Notes under the pieces: model-generated | The model's input: the letters and a program-made list of their open reading frames with translations, nothing else | Told to the model about the DNA's origin: nothing | The model's database searches: none | Program-made: the position numbers and the translations under genes | NCBI GenBank assembly: GCA_031264445.1 | Contig: JAISDW010000009.1 | Location: 1 to 36,948, forward strand | Source of the DNA: Elusimicrobiota bacterium | Lineage (GTDB): Bacteria > Elusimicrobiota > Elusimicrobia > Elusimicrobiales > Elusimicrobiaceae | Reading direction: 5' to 3' | Length of the DNA: 36,948 bases | Shown here: in pieces, positions 12,005-35,658 of the stretch | Layout: every line of letters starts with the position of its first letter | Numbering within the stretch: position 1 is the first letter of the stretch

Positions 12005-12163
12005 TTTTCTCCCTTTTGTAAAGGGAGTGGCGCGAAGCGCCGAGGGATTTAATGGCAGTAAAGTTGTAAATGACTCTTTATTAATAACAGCTTATATTAA
12101 ATCCTCCGGCGCGAAGTGACAATTGTCACTTCGCGCCACCTCCTTTACTAAAGGAGGAAAAAG
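12005..12163. repeat. Family A full palindromic element (with partial leader 11953..12004)
   Basis: TTTTCTCCCTTTTGTAAAGGGAGTGGCGCGAAGCGCCGAGGGATTTAA ... TTAAATCCTCCGGCGCGAAGTGACAATTGTCACTTCGCGCCACCTCCTTTACTAAAGGAGG. Confidence 0.85.
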
Positions 12164-12342: not shown

Positions 12343-12888
12343 CTCTATGGGCTTACGCCCATAGTCTCACTTTATTCAAACAAAGTTTGCCCTAAATCCT
12401 CTTTCCCCTGCTCCTCAACGTACAACTTTATCATTTCCTCATTCACTCCTACTGTACTTACCATGTACCCCTCGGACCAAATCCCATCTGTTCCCCAGTA
12501 CAATCTTTGTAAGTATCCGTATTTTTCTTTCATCGCTTTCCCAGTATTGCATTTTATTATACGCACCACATCGCTAACGCTCATTTTGGGCGGAATACTT
12601 ACAACCATGTGCACGTGGTCCATATCGTGGTTACAATTTTCTATCTCTATCTCGGGATAATGGGATCTTATACGCCTAAGCAGTTTTAAAAAATACTCAT
12701 GGACCCCTGCCGGCCTAAATACTTTCCTACGGTATTTTGTGTTAAATACTAAATGGTATTTGCAATAGTAGACACTATGTCCTTGTTTTTTTAATCGCAT
12801 GCTTCTATCTTACTATTTTCTATCGCGACGAACATCGGGCACGGATTTAGGGAGGAACTCCCTCCACGGGCTTACGCCCGTGGATTCA
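12343..12888 (-). mobile_element. IS200-type insertion sequence (tnpA only); ends approximate
   Basis: TnpA ORF bracketed by two hairpins sharing the core GGGCTTACGCCC: CTATGGGC-TTAC-GCCCATAG (12345..12364) and CCACGGGC-TTAC-GCCCGTGG (12864..12883). Confidence 0.85.
12372..12800 (-). CDS. tnpA: IS200/IS605-family Y1 (HUH) transposase TnpA
   Basis: HSVYYCKYHLVFNTKYRRKVF...HDMDHVHMVVSIPPKMSVSDVVRIIK, typical TnpA Y1 pattern. Confidence 0.95.
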   Translation of the reverse strand: MRLKKQGHSVYYCKYHLVFNTKYRRKVFRPAGVHEYFLKLLRRIRSHYPEIEIENCNHDMDHVHMVVSIPPKMSVSDVVRIIKCNTGKAMKEKYGYLQRLYWGTDGIWSEGYMVSTVGVNEEMIKLYVEEQGKEDLGQTLFE

Positions 12889-13400: not shown

Positions 13401-13453
13401 CCTCTCCCTTCGTGATGGGAGAGGGTTAGGGTGAGGGCGGAAATTATCTTCTC
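13401..13453. repeat. Repeat family D copy 1
   Basis: CCTCTCCCTTCGTGATGGGAGAGGGTTAGGGTGAGGGCGGAAATTATCTTCTC; about 49/53 nt shared with 35606..35658. Confidence 0.8.
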
Positions 13454-16848: not shown

Positions 16849-16864
16849 ATGCTTTGCCCTGTGC

Positions 16865-16919
16865 CATTTTCTACCTTTAGTAAAAAGCATTGTTTTGGTT
16901 TTGGATATTTGGGCAGTTT
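16865..16919. repeat. Family A leader module
   Basis: TTTTCTACCTTTAGTAAAAAGCATTGTTTTGGTTTTGGATATTTGGGCAGTTTTCT, similar to 11953..12004 and 18392..18435. Confidence 0.6.
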
Positions 16920-16971
16920 TCTACCTTTCGTAAAGAAAGCGGCTCGCAATAGCGGTGCGGAGCATATGCCG

Positions 16972-17143
16972 TTTTCTCCCTTTTGTAAAGGGAGTACCAC
17001 GGCGTAGCGTAGCGAAGACGGGGGAGGGATTTAAGATAAGCCGTTATTAATAAAGAGTAGTTTACGATTTTATAACTTTACGGCTTTACGGCCTTTAAAT
17101 CCCTCGGCGCTTCGCGCCACTCCCTTTACAAAAGGGAGCAAAA
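16972..17143. repeat. Family A full palindromic element
   Basis: TTTTCTCCCTTTTGTAAAGGGAG...GGGATTTAA - centre - TTTAAATCCCTCGGCGCTTCGCGCCACTCCCTTTACAAAAGGGAG. Confidence 0.85.
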
Positions 17144-17164
17144 CTTGCGCATGACAACAAAAGA

Positions 17165-17193
17165 AACGCCCCGCAATAAAAACGCGGGGCGTT
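17165..17193 (-). terminator. Hairpin terminator downstream of 17245..18057
   Basis: AACGCCCCGC...GCGGGGCGTT stem followed on the minus strand by TTCTTTTGTTG. Confidence 0.6.
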
Positions 17194-17244
17194 AAACTAA
17201 ACAACAAACTAACTCATTACATCAAGGCAACTACAAATTTCAAT

Positions 17245-18057
17245 TTATATCAAATTATAAGTCGTATGCAAAAGGCTGTTGGTATCAAGCGTGCGAATAA
17301 AATCAGCCACTATGCCATTGCTTTTAATCTTTTCCATAAGGCGGGAAAGCTCGTTTTTATTCGTCAAGGCGTAATTTATTGTTTTGTAAGCCGCTTCCTG
17401 TATTAAAGCGGTTGTTCTTGGTATATCTTTTAATAAATTATATACGCCAGGGCTCTTGTTTTCCGCAAATGCAAGAACCGTCATATTCTTGTTATTATCC
17501 CTAATTTCAATATAAGGATTAGCTTTAGGCTTTAAAATCTTGGCCCCGCCAATATTATTACCTTCGGCAGCCGTGGCCACGACAGTGCGGGACTCGTTGG
17601 CATTAGGACCATGGATGGCACAAGCCCTGTCGTAATTAACATCCCAACCCCGTCCCATTAAATATTTAATAATACTTTCGGAATTTTCCCCGCTGTAATA
17701 TGCGGAGACCTGCAATAAATTTAATCCGTTTTTATTGCTATGTAAAATGGGGTCTCCCCACCTCTGGCTTCTGACACAATATTTAATAATTTCTGTAGCC
17801 ACTTTGTCATTTTTCGTAAGCGCATTTTCAAGCAGTTCCCAGGCGGACATATACCGGCCGGCATACTTGCCCATTTTAAATTTATAATTGCTGTCCAAAC
17901 TTGGGTATTCATTCTCCGGTTTCTCGTCTTCAAAATTACATGGTATCTTTGCCTGCGAATTTGTTGCTTCAAAACTAATCTGCGGAATAGCCGCGTAAGA
18001 AAGAGTGGCCAAAACAAACAAACTTAATACAGGCAGGACTAATTTTTTGAGCTGCAT
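17245..18057 (-). CDS. Secreted ankyrin-like protein
   Basis: Start reassigned to MQLKKLVLPVL with GGAGGATAT upstream; signal peptide; ankyrin-like segments (NGLNLLQVSAYYSGENSESIIKYLMGRGWDVNY; MTVLAFAENKSPGVYNLL). Confidence 0.6.
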   Translation of the reverse strand: MQLKKLVLPVLSLFVLATLSYAAIPQISFEATNSQAKIPCNFEDEKPENEYPSLDSNYKFKMGKYAGRYMSAWELLENALTKNDKVATEIIKYCVRSQRWGDPILHSNKNGLNLLQVSAYYSGENSESIIKYLMGRGWDVNYDRACAIHGPNANESRTVVATAAEGNNIGGAKILKPKANPYIEIRDNNKNMTVLAFAENKSPGVYNLLKDIPRTTALIQEAAYKTINYALTNKNELSRLMEKIKSNGIVADFIRTLDTNSLLHTTYNLI

Positions 18058-18199
18058 ATAAATATCCTCCGAAGAAGTATCAAATAATTGATTTATACTA
18101 ATATATGCTGTTTCACTATTAAGTATAACACAAAACCGGAAATATGTCAAGCGTTTTGTAAGATATCAATACATATTGGACTTTGGCCAATTTTAGTCT

Positions 18200-18369
18200 T
18201 TTTCTCCCTTTCGTAAAGGGAGTACCACGAAGGGGCGAGGGATTTAATAATATAAGCAGTTATTGAAAAAAATAGTAGTTTGTAATTTTGCGGCTTTACA
18301 GCCATTAAATCCTCCGCCCGACTTCGCTTCGCTACGCCGTGGCACCTCCTTTACGAAAGGAGGAAAAAG
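18200..18369. repeat. Family A full palindromic element
   Basis: TTTCTCCCTTTCGTAAAGGGAGTACCACGAAGGGGCGAGGGATTTAA ... ATTAAATCCTCCGCCCGACTTCGCTTCGCTACGCCGTGGCACCTCCTTTACGAAAGGAGGAAAAA. Confidence 0.85.
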
Positions 18370-18433
18370 GCATAATCTTATTCTTCCGCTCTCTTTCGTA
18401 AAGGGTATTATTTTTACTTTGGATATTTGAGCT

Positions 18434-18938
18434 GTTTTCTCCCTTTAGTAAAGGGAGTGGCCCGCAGGGCCGAGGGATTTAATTGCACCGTATATCCAAT
18501 TCCAGAACAAGCCGTCAGGTGGGGTGGGATTTAATATTATCCCAAATTACTTTTAAAACAGTCTCCAAATCGCGGTATATATCTGTATTCGTAAACCTTA
18601 AAACCGTAAACCCTTTGGAGCTTAAATATAAATCTCTTTCCTTGTCTTTTGCCTTGGCGTCGTCAGTATAATGCCCGCCGCCGTCAAGTTCTATTACCAG
18701 TTTCTCTTTAGTACAGCAAAAATCTGCAATATAATTTCCTACGGGCTTCTGCCTGTAAAATATTGCGTTTTTAATTTGCCCTTTTCTTATTTTTGACCAT
18801 AGGATTAATTCCGGCTCCGTCATTCTTGCTCTTAAGTTCCGGGATAATGATTTATTGTTTTTATTGTATTCTATCATTAAATCCCTCCCCGTCTTCGCTG
18901 CGCTACGCCGGTACTCCCTTTACAAAAGGGAGAAAACG
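18434..18938. mobile_element. Candidate DUF559-bearing family A element
   Basis: Left arm 18434..18482, inner arm AGGTGGGGTGGGATTTAAT (18518..18535), DUF559 ORF, right arm ATTAAATCCCTCCCCGTC...TACTCCCTTTACAAAAGGGAG (about 18875..18938). Confidence 0.6.
18515..18877 (-). CDS. DUF559 domain endonuclease (PD-(D/E)XK, Vsr-like)
   Basis: LSRNLRARMTEPELILWSKIRKGQIKNAIFYRQKPVGNYIADFCCTKEKLVIELDGGGHYTDDAKAKDKERDLYLSSKGFTVLRFTN, hallmark DUF559. Confidence 0.95.
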   Translation of the reverse strand: MIEYNKNNKSLSRNLRARMTEPELILWSKIRKGQIKNAIFYRQKPVGNYIADFCCTKEKLVIELDGGGHYTDDAKAKDKERDLYLSSKGFTVLRFTNTDIYRDLETVLKVIWDNIKSHPT

Positions 18939-18983
18939 ACAAACGCTTTACGGCATTACTTTAATTATCTTTCTATATTTTAA

Positions 18984-20876
18984 TTATTTATTGTAAGTAA
19001 TGGCACCCATTGACCTGTAGGCATTATACATACCATCTTGAAGCAGCTTACGCTTGGCCTCCTCCGTAGATACAAATCTTCGCGTTGCCGCTACAAGCTC
19101 TTTGGCAAAATTATCCAAATTTAACGGCGTTATAACGCCGTTAAATTCAACGACAATATACCCGCCGTTTTCAGGCTTTTCATAATATTCTTTTTGCTCC
19201 TTGGTCCTCACTATAATTATAATGGGCATTTTTTCAGGATTGCTCTGCAATAATACGTTCAAATCACCCTCTGGGGAAAAGTTTTCCGCATGGCTCTTGC
19301 CGTCTTTGCCCGTAACAAGAGACTTAACAATCTGCCAGTAATAATTATCGTCTGGTATACCTTGGAGATCATTGCCCTTAAAACCGTCTATCATCGCTAT
19401 TGTCAACGGCTGGCTGGTTTTAGCTTTAGACAAAATATCTATTATTTCAGGGCCGTATGTTTCTTTATATTTTTTATCAACATCATCTAATTCTTTATCT
19501 ACACGCTTTTGATCGCTCCCAAGAAATATGCCAAAGGCACCTAAATTTTCATTATAAAAAGCTCTTCCGGGGCCGTTACCTTTCAAGTCTTTGGGAAACA
19601 TCCAAGGATTATCTTTCGGATTATCTTCATAATCAAACTTTCCTTGAAAGGTTTTTAAGGCGGAGCATTCTGTTTTGCCGGCGCAAAACAGCTCCTTTGT
19701 AATATCTCTGCGTATATCTTCATTACCCGAGATTATATTTTCGCCGCTTCCTTGCAGTTGAATAGGTTGAGGTTTATTATCTAATGCGGATTCATCAACG
19801 GACATTGAGCTTTGCCCACCGGAACCCATTGAGGAACCTGACACCTTATCTTGCTTTATTGCCGCAGGCCAAAACTTCTCACCCATCAACTGTTGCTGAA
19901 ATAATTTCTTGACATCCGCAAGCATGGTCGTATTATCTTTCTGTTGCTTTGCCGCTTCTTTCGCGTTTGCCGCAGCAACTTTGCCTGCCACTGCTCCGGC
20001 CGCAGCCCTGCTGCCTGCGCCGCCGCGCGAAACCCCGCGCGAGCCGCCCGCACCCGCGCCGCCATAAGAACCGCCGCCACCGCCGCCGCGGCCGGCTTTG
20101 GCGTCAGCAGTAAGCGGCGCGCCGAAGCCGTCAAAATTCCCAAAGCCGCCGCCTTTGCCGCTGTGCCGCCGGCCGCCGGCCTCGTCAAATAAGCTCCGCG
20201 CGCCATTGCCGCTGAGTCTGTTGTAATCCCCGCTTTGCAAAAACTGCGCCACGCCGCCCGGGTAATTAGTCCGCTCCGCGTATTTGGCGGCTTCAATTAT
20301 TTGCCAGTCTTCCAGCCCGGGCGCGGCTTTTTTGGCGGCCTTATAATCCTGCTCGCTGACGGTTGCGCCCAAAAACTGATCATAAGGCACCAGGCCGTTT
20401 TCCGTCTTTACGAATTTGCTGCCAGACTCGTCCTGATACACTTCGTAAATCGGGCCGCCGTTGATGCGCACGTATTCTTTGGAGCTTTCGGCCACGGCTT
20501 CAGCCTGCGCGATCTGCTGCGCGCGTATGGCTTCGGCCTGCGCCATTGCCGCAGCATGGTACGTAGCAGCATCGGAGGAGGAAAGCGCGTCCCGCCGTAC
20601 GTCCCGGTCCCCGCCGGAGGCGCCGCGTGCACCCGCGGCGGGCTTCCTGCCGGCGGCACTCTCATAAAACGCTTTCGCCCGCTTGGCGTAAGCCGCAAGC
20701 GGATTGCCAAAGGTGGATAAAGGTTCGGCTATATACTTTTCCCCCAGCTCCCTGATTAAGGAGCCCTCGGGCCATAAAAACGGCAGGCACATGAAAATTA
20801 CAAAGAAAATCAGGGCGGCGGCCCATACCGCGTGGTTTTTGAAAAATCTGCCCAGCTTCTGTTTTTGTTTTTGCAT
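18984..20876 (-). CDS. Single-pass membrane protein with Gly/Ala-rich low-complexity region, function unknown
   Basis: Start reassigned to MQKQKQKLGRFF with GGGGAGG SD; one N-terminal TM; GRGGGGGGSYGGAGAGGSRG region; no recognised fold in the C-terminal half. Confidence 0.75.
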   Translation of the reverse strand: MQKQKQKLGRFFKNHAVWAAALIFFVIFMCLPFLWPEGSLIRELGEKYIAEPLSTFGNPLAAYAKRAKAFYESAAGRKPAAGARGASGGDRDVRRDALSSSDAATYHAAAMAQAEAIRAQQIAQAEAVAESSKEYVRINGGPIYEVYQDESGSKFVKTENGLVPYDQFLGATVSEQDYKAAKKAAPGLEDWQIIEAAKYAERTNYPGGVAQFLQSGDYNRLSGNGARSLFDEAGGRRHSGKGGGFGNFDGFGAPLTADAKAGRGGGGGGSYGGAGAGGSRGVSRGGAGSRAAAGAVAGKVAAANAKEAAKQQKDNTTMLADVKKLFQQQLMGEKFWPAAIKQDKVSGSSMGSGGQSSMSVDESALDNKPQPIQLQGSGENIISGNEDIRRDITKELFCAGKTECSALKTFQGKFDYEDNPKDNPWMFPKDLKGNGPGRAFYNENLGAFGIFLGSDQKRVDKELDDVDKKYKETYGPEIIDILSKAKTSQPLTIAMIDGFKGNDLQGIPDDNYYWQIVKSLVTGKDGKSHAENFSPEGDLNVLLQSNPEKMPIIIIVRTKEQKEYYEKPENGGYIVVEFNGVITPLNLDNFAKELVAATRRFVSTEEAKRKLLQDGMYNAYRSMGAITYNK

Positions 20877-21036
20877 TTTACGAAACCTCCCCTGTAGCTT
20901 ATTATCCCTGTCCTGCAAAAAACGGCCATACATACTGTATATATCTTACAATAATTATATATTAACAAATTTACACAATATTGCAAGTACTTGGCGGGCT
21001 GCCTTTAGTAAATGGAATGCTTTGGCTTTATGGCTG

Positions 21037-21192
21037 TTTTCCTCCTTTTGTAAAGGAGGTGCCCACAGGGCGGAGGATTTAATGATTGTAAATATGTAAA
21101 GTCGGAAACCGTTATTTATTAATAGCTTATTTTAAATCCCTCTCCGCCTTCGCTTCGCTGCGCCGGTACTCCCTTTACAAAAGGGAGAAAAA
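21037..21192. repeat. Family A full palindromic element
   Basis: TTTTCCTCCTTTTGTAAAGGAGGTGCCCACAGGGCGGAGGATTTAA ... TTTAAATCCCTCTCCGCC...CGGTACTCCCTTTACAAAAGGGAGAAAAA. Confidence 0.85.
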
Positions 21193-21257
21193 TACTAAAA
21201 CTACCAAATGCCCGATATCTAACACCGTTATTGCTTTAAATTAAGTAAAATAGCTTT

Positions 21258-26519: not shown

Positions 26520-26521
26520 TT

Positions 26522-26600
26522 GTCATACCCGAATGTTTCTATCGGGTATCCGGCCGTAGGCTTTACTACCAGATACCCGATTAAGACACTCGGGTATGAC
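26522..26600. repeat. Family B two-hairpin repeat
   Basis: GTCATACCCGA-ATGTTTCTA-TCGGGTATC ... GATACCCGA-TTAAGACAC-TCGGGTATGAC. Confidence 0.85.
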
Positions 26601-26756
26601 AGGAAGAATAACGGGGTCAATTAAATAATATCCTTGTATTATAAATTTTCCGAATAAAGCCTATAAAAGTTATAAGCATCATAAAGCATACTATCTCATG
26701 AATTATTGTTGTATAATATATTTGACTTTATATTTTTTGCACCAAGGGGAAATAGT

Positions 26757-28087: not shown

Positions 28088-28119
28088 GTCCGCGATTATA
28101 AAATGATAAAATTTAGTTT

Positions 28120-28188
28120 GTCATGCCCGAGTGCCTTAATCGGGTATCCGTTCTTTTCAGATTCCCGATTACAGCATTCGGGAATGAC
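28120..28188. repeat. Family B two-hairpin repeat
   Basis: GTCATGCCCGA-GTGCCTTAA-TCGGGTATC ... GATTCCCGA-TTACAGCAT-TCGGGAATGAC. Confidence 0.85.
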
Positions 28189-35605: not shown

Positions 35606-35658
35606 CCTCTCCCTTCGTGATGGGAGAGGGCCGGGGTGAGGGTGGAAATTATCTTCTC
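35606..35658. repeat. Repeat family D copy 2
   Basis: CCTCTCCCTTCGTGATGGGAGAGGGCCGGGGTGAGGGTGGAAATTATCTTCTC. Confidence 0.8.

Follow-up and report, generated by a model that had tools for sequence, protein, structure and literature searches.

A DUF559 nuclease gene between inverted hairpin arms as a candidate agent for the spread of BoxC-type palindromes

BoxC/PIT/TM palindromes, known from E. coli since the 1990s, mark unstable loci, and DUF559 is a widespread protein family whose function is uncertain. The repeats have been described as an intrastrand-triplex motif in more than 260 genomes, and the 2015 survey found neither transposase or integrase remnants nearby nor a mobility gene (Holder et al., 2015; PMC4666352), leaving them described as orphans. 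REP/REPIN palindromes, by comparison, come with a single small nuclease gene, the Y1/HUH transposase RAYT (TnpA-REP), which lies between inverted REPs and is accompanied by many gene-less copies. Free-standing homing endonucleases such as I-Bth0305I, which has a Vsr-like fold, are small lone nucleases that insert as units, also inside conserved genes. Rickettsia palindromic elements (RPE) and prokaryotic MITEs are palindromic, multi-copy and found in-frame in protein genes, and have been reviewed as gene-less and non-autonomous (PMC10969869). DUF559 itself (PF04480) is represented by NGO0050 (PDB 3hrl), E. coli YcjD and Caulobacter VsrA, the last causing an SOS response upon deletion of a cytosine methyltransferase and proposed as a Vsr/mismatch-repair enzyme (PMC12907096). 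In the literature mentioning DUF559, consulted mostly as titles and abstracts and with preprints and most subscription journals outside the search, no link of these proteins to hairpin or palindromic repeats was apparent, and priority for such a link cannot be claimed with certainty.

The window analysed here is a whole contig of 36,948 nucleotides from the 1.57 Mb draft genome of an Elusimicrobiota bacterium. It contains a palindromic element in which a DUF559 gene is enclosed by two inverted arms, together with gene-less (solo) elements. The features are as follows, a strand being assigned to the gene only.

18435..18936: whole DUF559-bearing palindromic element, 502 bp; its ends, TTTTCTCCC at 18435 and GGGAGAAAA finishing at 18936, are common to 18 gene-less copies.
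18435..18482: left arm, with the outer hairpin (18439-18457), then a second short hairpin and the inner GAGGGATTTAA; 90% complementary to 17095-17142.
18518..18534: GGTGGGGTGGGATTTAA, the second of the two left inner motifs, which overlaps the gene at its 3' end; read directly.
18515..18877, minus strand: intact DUF559 (PD-(D/E)XK-type) nuclease gene, 120 aa.
18878..18936: right arm, inverted, from TTAAATCCC through the outer hairpin (18914-18932) to GGGAGAAAA; 90% identical to 21132-21198.
12005..12162: solo element, from direct comparison and shared ends.
16972..17143: solo element directly after ruvC, from direct comparison and its centre.
18199..18368: solo element, from direct comparison and shared ends.
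21037..21192: solo element directly before ruvA, from direct comparison.
13401..13437: arm of BoxC type, belonging to the genome's other arm family (as at loci L002 and L003), with a second copy at 35606-35642.
16849..21257: 4.4-kb insert between ruvC and ruvA, holding the DUF559 element, three solos and two other ORFs, delimited by sister-species comparison.

An earlier, sequence-only reading had placed the start codon of the gene against the right inner arm, its last codons and stop in the left inner motif, and inverted copies of the arm on its two sides, all of which can be read in the sequence. The gene, on the minus strand, has its start codon at 18875-18877, directly against the arm beginning with TTAAATCCC at 18878, and the stop (18515-18517) and last codons (encoding IKSHPT) lie within the left inner motif AAATCCCACCCCACCTGA. 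The inner GGGATTTAA motif occurs twice on the left side, closing the arm at 18482 and recurring 35 bp further in (18518-18534), over the 3' end of the gene. The assignment to DUF559 was likewise borne out, the protein scoring 116.4 bits against a cut-off of 20.6 for PF04480 (E 7e-34). Its AF2 model (mean pLDDT 90) has 3hrl, itself a DUF559 protein, as the nearest solved fold (E 2e-8), followed by the catalytic domain of the homing endonuclease I-Bth0305I (E 2.5e-4), with Vsr (1vsr, E 0.18) and TnsA as weak matches; 3hrl compared with the window protein gives E 2.5e-20. E23, D52, E63, D65 and H69 are invariant among 46 homologues, and because the window copy keeps every residue invariant in these proteins it appears to be functional. 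With a PD-(D/E)XK, Vsr-like fold and conserved acidic residues, it is predicted to be a nuclease.

With up to two mismatches allowed, the outer hairpin CTCCCTTTNNTAAAGGGAG has 97 sites on one strand of the 1.57 Mb genome and 95 on the other, compared with 1 on each for the reversed pattern, and this repetition (about 96 genome copies) is not due to chance. The short copies previously noticed at 12005, 16972, 18200 and 21037 were all found again; they do have the arm-centre-arm form proposed for them, but the centre is not arbitrary, being mostly one conserved sequence. Eighteen solos of 144-204 bp share their ends with the 502-bp element, and most of their centres carry TGGCCGTAAA..GTTGTAAAC..TATTAATAACGGCTTATA, with no DUF559 similarity in the 18 centres beyond the 12-13 bp inner motifs. 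An origin of these centres from the DUF559 gene thus found no support in this genome, the centres being unlike the gene, and because the short elements own a separate centre, simple internal deletion of the DUF559 copy does not account for them. The suggestion that they are MITE-like stands in the broad sense of gene-less copies with the ends of a gene-bearing member, and deletion or relic forms exist elsewhere (Legionella locus L196; PriA in genome G222), but it does not extend to the centres found here. Gene-less copies of both arm types occur within the window, at 12005, 16972, 18200 and 21037 for the one and at 13401 and 35606 for the other. Two further repeat features were observed in the window: a Y1 (IS200-like) transposase gene (12372-12800; L006) flanked on either side by small hairpins of its own (GGGCTTACGCCC) that differ from BoxC-type arms, and another inverted repeat (TGTCATACCCGA..TCGGGTATGACA; 26521-26601 and 28119-28148) near prepilin-like sequences, with the second copy 1.5 kb on.

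All four DUF559 genes of this genome are bracketed by inverted hairpin arms. The window element (L004) and L001 have one arm type, and L002 and L003 have another, CCCTCTCCC-loop-GGGAGAGGG..GGGTGAGGG; L001/L004 and L002/L003 pair by protein and by arm alike (arm scores 42 and 35, vs 13-16). The latter arm, a multi-copy pyrimidine hairpin with a third purine block, is the BoxC/PIT/TM repeat, and it is the common arm, present at L002/L003 and at most of the 80 loci described below. The window-type arm (CTCCCTTT..AAAGGGAG plus GAGGGATTTAA) does not fit the exact BoxC pattern and is a divergent cousin. The pattern itself has 32 sites in genome G000. Among 200 genomes of the phylum, it occurs in 18 of the 27 with strong DUF559 genes and in 13 of the 173 others (p 2.7e-11), with genomes counted as independent apart from a split by Y1 genes and a view by family. 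The link holds in both Y1-positive (p 4e-7) and Y1-negative genomes (p 0.002), and within the window's family the pattern is confined to G000, G130 and G185, all three of which have strong DUF559 genes; a fourth strong carrier, G013, has different arms. Outside the phylum, both NGO0050-like loci and ycjD loci bear BoxC-type arms. In E. coli, ycjD lies between sapF and fabI with BoxC downstream, the arm being on one side only; of 5426 complete genomes, 3370 have the gene at this single locus. A clean empty site at ycjD was considered and rejected, since strains lacking the gene have an efflux operon beside sapF; in strain ETEC6 (L124), an IS1 lies inside ycjD.

A scan of GTDB species genomes with a DUF559 protein motif (narrowed alignment), starting from the DUF559 protein of the same-family genome G130 and covering the subfamily close to that query, returned 80 loci in 13 named phylum-level groups, 78 of them testable. 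Because the scan went by protein sequence, these loci were not selected for arms. An inverted-flank score of at least 14 was reached at 63 of the 78 (81%), compared with 0.45% of random windows. Triplex-type hairpin arms stand on both sides of 60 of the 78 (0.16% of random windows) and on at least one side of 72 (3.5%). The sequence-only reading would have the arms belong to the gene; its orthologues elsewhere are strongly the reverse of armless, and such arms are not as frequent beside unrelated genes, with only 0.7% of 554 other genes from the same loci reaching that score. The nesting of the gene between palindromes is therefore far more general than that reading had supposed. In the phylum sample, most full-length DUF559 genes show the same arm-gene-arm design, and arms are absent at partial or long-protein matches (e.g., L031-L035). 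Among named plasmid records (Deinococcus, cyanobacteria, alphaproteobacteria and others), 11 of 12 loci carry at least one arm, the sole exception being a divergent protein from Thermoactinomyces. The two arms of a locus match over about 37 bp, in many cases including the loops; across the 80 loci both point inward at 40 and both outward at 5. Protein and arm distances are correlated over 94 loci (Mantel r 0.30; 0.28 after removal of GC content and distant flanks, p 0.001), and arm type varies with nuclease lineage. The distribution of the gene is patchy, with multiple copies decaying, and its tree intermixes phyla on too few columns for transfers to be counted. Several units lie in or beside DNA-modification genes (L046, L049, L056, L063, L065, L269 and L272), namely DUF1156, HsdS, MmeI, DNA methylase and BREX PglX genes.

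Empty sites, called for at the outset as a check on mobility, exist in relatives at three places. Among 35 species of one Gastranaerophilales genus, PriA carries an in-frame DUF559 unit in 4; at the same point 6 species have a 21-bp linker, as against 465 and 453 bp where the site is occupied and was measured, and 1 (G222) retains a relic of 36 bp of the left arm. Occupied and empty cognate sites are thus found together, as for homing elements. In many sister species, other repetitive expansions (e.g., RARGQEGKLVSD) occupy the PriA linker before LLHGVTASGKTE (L130-L154), and because of these the linker seems to tolerate insertions generally. In Sinorhizobium, 733 bp comprising DUF559 and two arm pairs are missing from the same gene junction in Shinella. 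Solo arms about 98-99% identical to those of the Sinorhizobium locus are common on S. meliloti pSymB (L278 and other plasmid records) and possibly correspond to known RIME-type repeats; in S. meliloti Ak57 (L277), an IS4-like element has landed in the arm pair on the right. Searches of Azospirillum and Sphingomonas plasmids yielded no clean empty site. In the window, where the DUF559 copy is intergenic, ruvC and ruvA are separated by 4.4 kb vs 6 to about 150 bp in 6 of 9 sister species, and solos lie near both edges of the insert; its other two ORFs encode proteins of 301 aa, weakly matching ankyrin, and of 649 aa, without a Pfam match. Across the loci the unit occupies many unrelated genes as well as intergenic positions: 24 of the 80 lie in-frame in long host ORFs, among them those for PriA, HrpA, Mfd, ValRS, IleRS, an MmeI-type enzyme, a poly(A)-polymerase-type protein and HsdS. 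The association of DUF559 with the arms and their insertion as a unit are well supported.

One Legionella genome contains 21 DUF559 matches, many of them broken; among these are about ten closely similar dispersed elements carrying gene and arms, and one internal-deletion form (L196). In evolved L. pneumophila, homing-endonuclease and DUF559 repeats were involved in 44% of 61 structural variants (PMC12308824). The elements of genome G256 (L189, L190, L193, L194 and L198) carry, in addition, an outer inverted repeat of 70 bp (CTTCCAATTAGCC..), and of the 7 copies whose ends are both intact 5 are flanked by 8-bp direct repeats that differ at no more than one position; these features point to a different enzyme in that genome. 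Two single ends aside, the outer repeats accompany DUF559 matches exclusively and have no transposase-sized member; several of the elements sit within GC-rich palindromes or next to them (TGCCCGCGCAGGCGGGCA). A universal target duplication was rejected, as duplications of at least 6 bp were found at 0 of 70 canonical loci (1.2 expected), and none was found at the solos of the window genome. Mainly because the canonical ends differ in this way from the 8-bp repeats of G256, no single insertion chemistry is adopted here.

Taken together, these data allow a model, which we hold at even chances, in which the DUF559 gene and its two inverted arms form one selfish element and BoxC/PIT/TM palindromes are its gene-less relatives, spread by cleavage and repair. 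DUF559 would cut or nick at the hairpin arms, possibly upon their extrusion at replication forks, and the arm-gene-arm unit, or the arms alone, could then be copied by break repair into another palindrome or a nearby site in a homing-like manner. Gene-less copies would remain, both as targets and as by-products, and the gene would decay where movement stops. That DUF559 drives the spread of the repeats, and by what route, is what we infer from the bracketing and distribution, and several observations speak against it: the 13 of 173 genomes with BoxC and without a detected strong DUF559 gene, the one-sided arm at ycjD, the arms that face either way, and the outer and 8-bp repeats of the G256 copies. 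An alternative is that another enzyme, a DDE or Y1/RAYT-type transposase, moves the palindromic element in trans, DUF559 being cargo from which the element or host gains, perhaps a nuclease with a restriction-like, repair or addiction function. The 8-bp repeats of Legionella make this the main rival, and with the long outer inverted repeats of the G256 units and a published account of DUF559 segments alongside a transposase in L. pneumophila (PMC12308824) it has some footing; Y1 genes, moreover, show an association with BoxC in the phylum, albeit a weaker one (OR 8.7, p 2e-6; p 0.002 without DUF559). However, Y1 genes are not bracketed (inverted flanks at 1 of 18, vs 18 of 24 for DUF559), so that a Y1 transposase was rejected as the bracketed driver and kept as a weaker co-variable. 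The hairpins of the window's own Y1 gene are different, the G256 outer repeats are confined to DUF559 matches in the manner described above, and the arms match the DUF559 lineage, so we consider a passenger role for DUF559 less likely than the model above.

Two other scenarios appear less probable still. BoxC arms may land independently on each side of the gene, at a spot that is tolerated or where DUF559 breaks DNA nearby, with no single element involved; arms in both orientations, the full arm pair on each side in a Sinorhizobium copy and the one-sided ycjD locus would fit such a hotspot. However, whole arm-gene-arm blocks are missing in relatives (in PriA and in Shinella), the two arms of a locus match along their length and in many cases their loops, and dispersed copies in one genome bear gene and arms together, which renders independent landing improbable. 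We give equally little credence to DUF559 being a housekeeping Vsr-like mismatch-repair nuclease with terminators or chance neighbours for hairpins, despite the proposed role of Caulobacter VsrA (PMC12907096), the single locus of ycjD in E. coli and the weak fold match to Vsr. Arms also flank the gene in-frame within PriA, HrpA and tRNA synthetases, where terminators make no sense, and other genes of the same loci lack such flanks; housekeeping also sits badly with the patchy distribution of the gene, the mixing of phyla and the decay of its multiple copies.

A selfish DUF559 element would differ from each of the systems set out at the beginning. Relative to BoxC/PIT/TM as described, the common arm is the same repeat and inverted pairs occur in both, but here a gene lies between the arms. 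The likeness to RAYT and REP, including the lack of target duplication at canonical loci, makes the counterpart that the sequence-only reading had drawn apt as an analogy. However, the bracketed gene is of PD-(D/E)XK rather than HUH/Y1 type, the Y1 genes of the phylum are unbracketed, the arms have a triplex design, and the closest solved fold of known function is a homing endonuclease. Unlike free-standing homing endonucleases, the gene is bracketed by multi-copy palindromes, and no intron or intein is involved. RPE and MITEs, compared by their features, share the in-frame insertion, but DUF559 elements carry a nuclease gene. That the DUF559 copy is the autonomous member, as first proposed, has become plausible across phyla through the bracketing, while remaining conjectural. 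A broader claim, that a lone PD-(D/E)XK nuclease is the only enzyme spreading a phylum-spanning class of triplex-forming palindromes, with the BoxC/PIT/TM repeats of hundreds of genomes as its gene-less members, is more tentative than the model above.

DUF559 is thus the first good candidate for the spreader of BoxC-type repeats. The link provides a candidate enzyme for the repeats and a candidate substrate for the enzyme, and both sides of it are testable in E. coli K-12, which has both ycjD and BoxC. It also reveals a nuclease domain inserted in-frame in core proteins such as PriA and HrpA.
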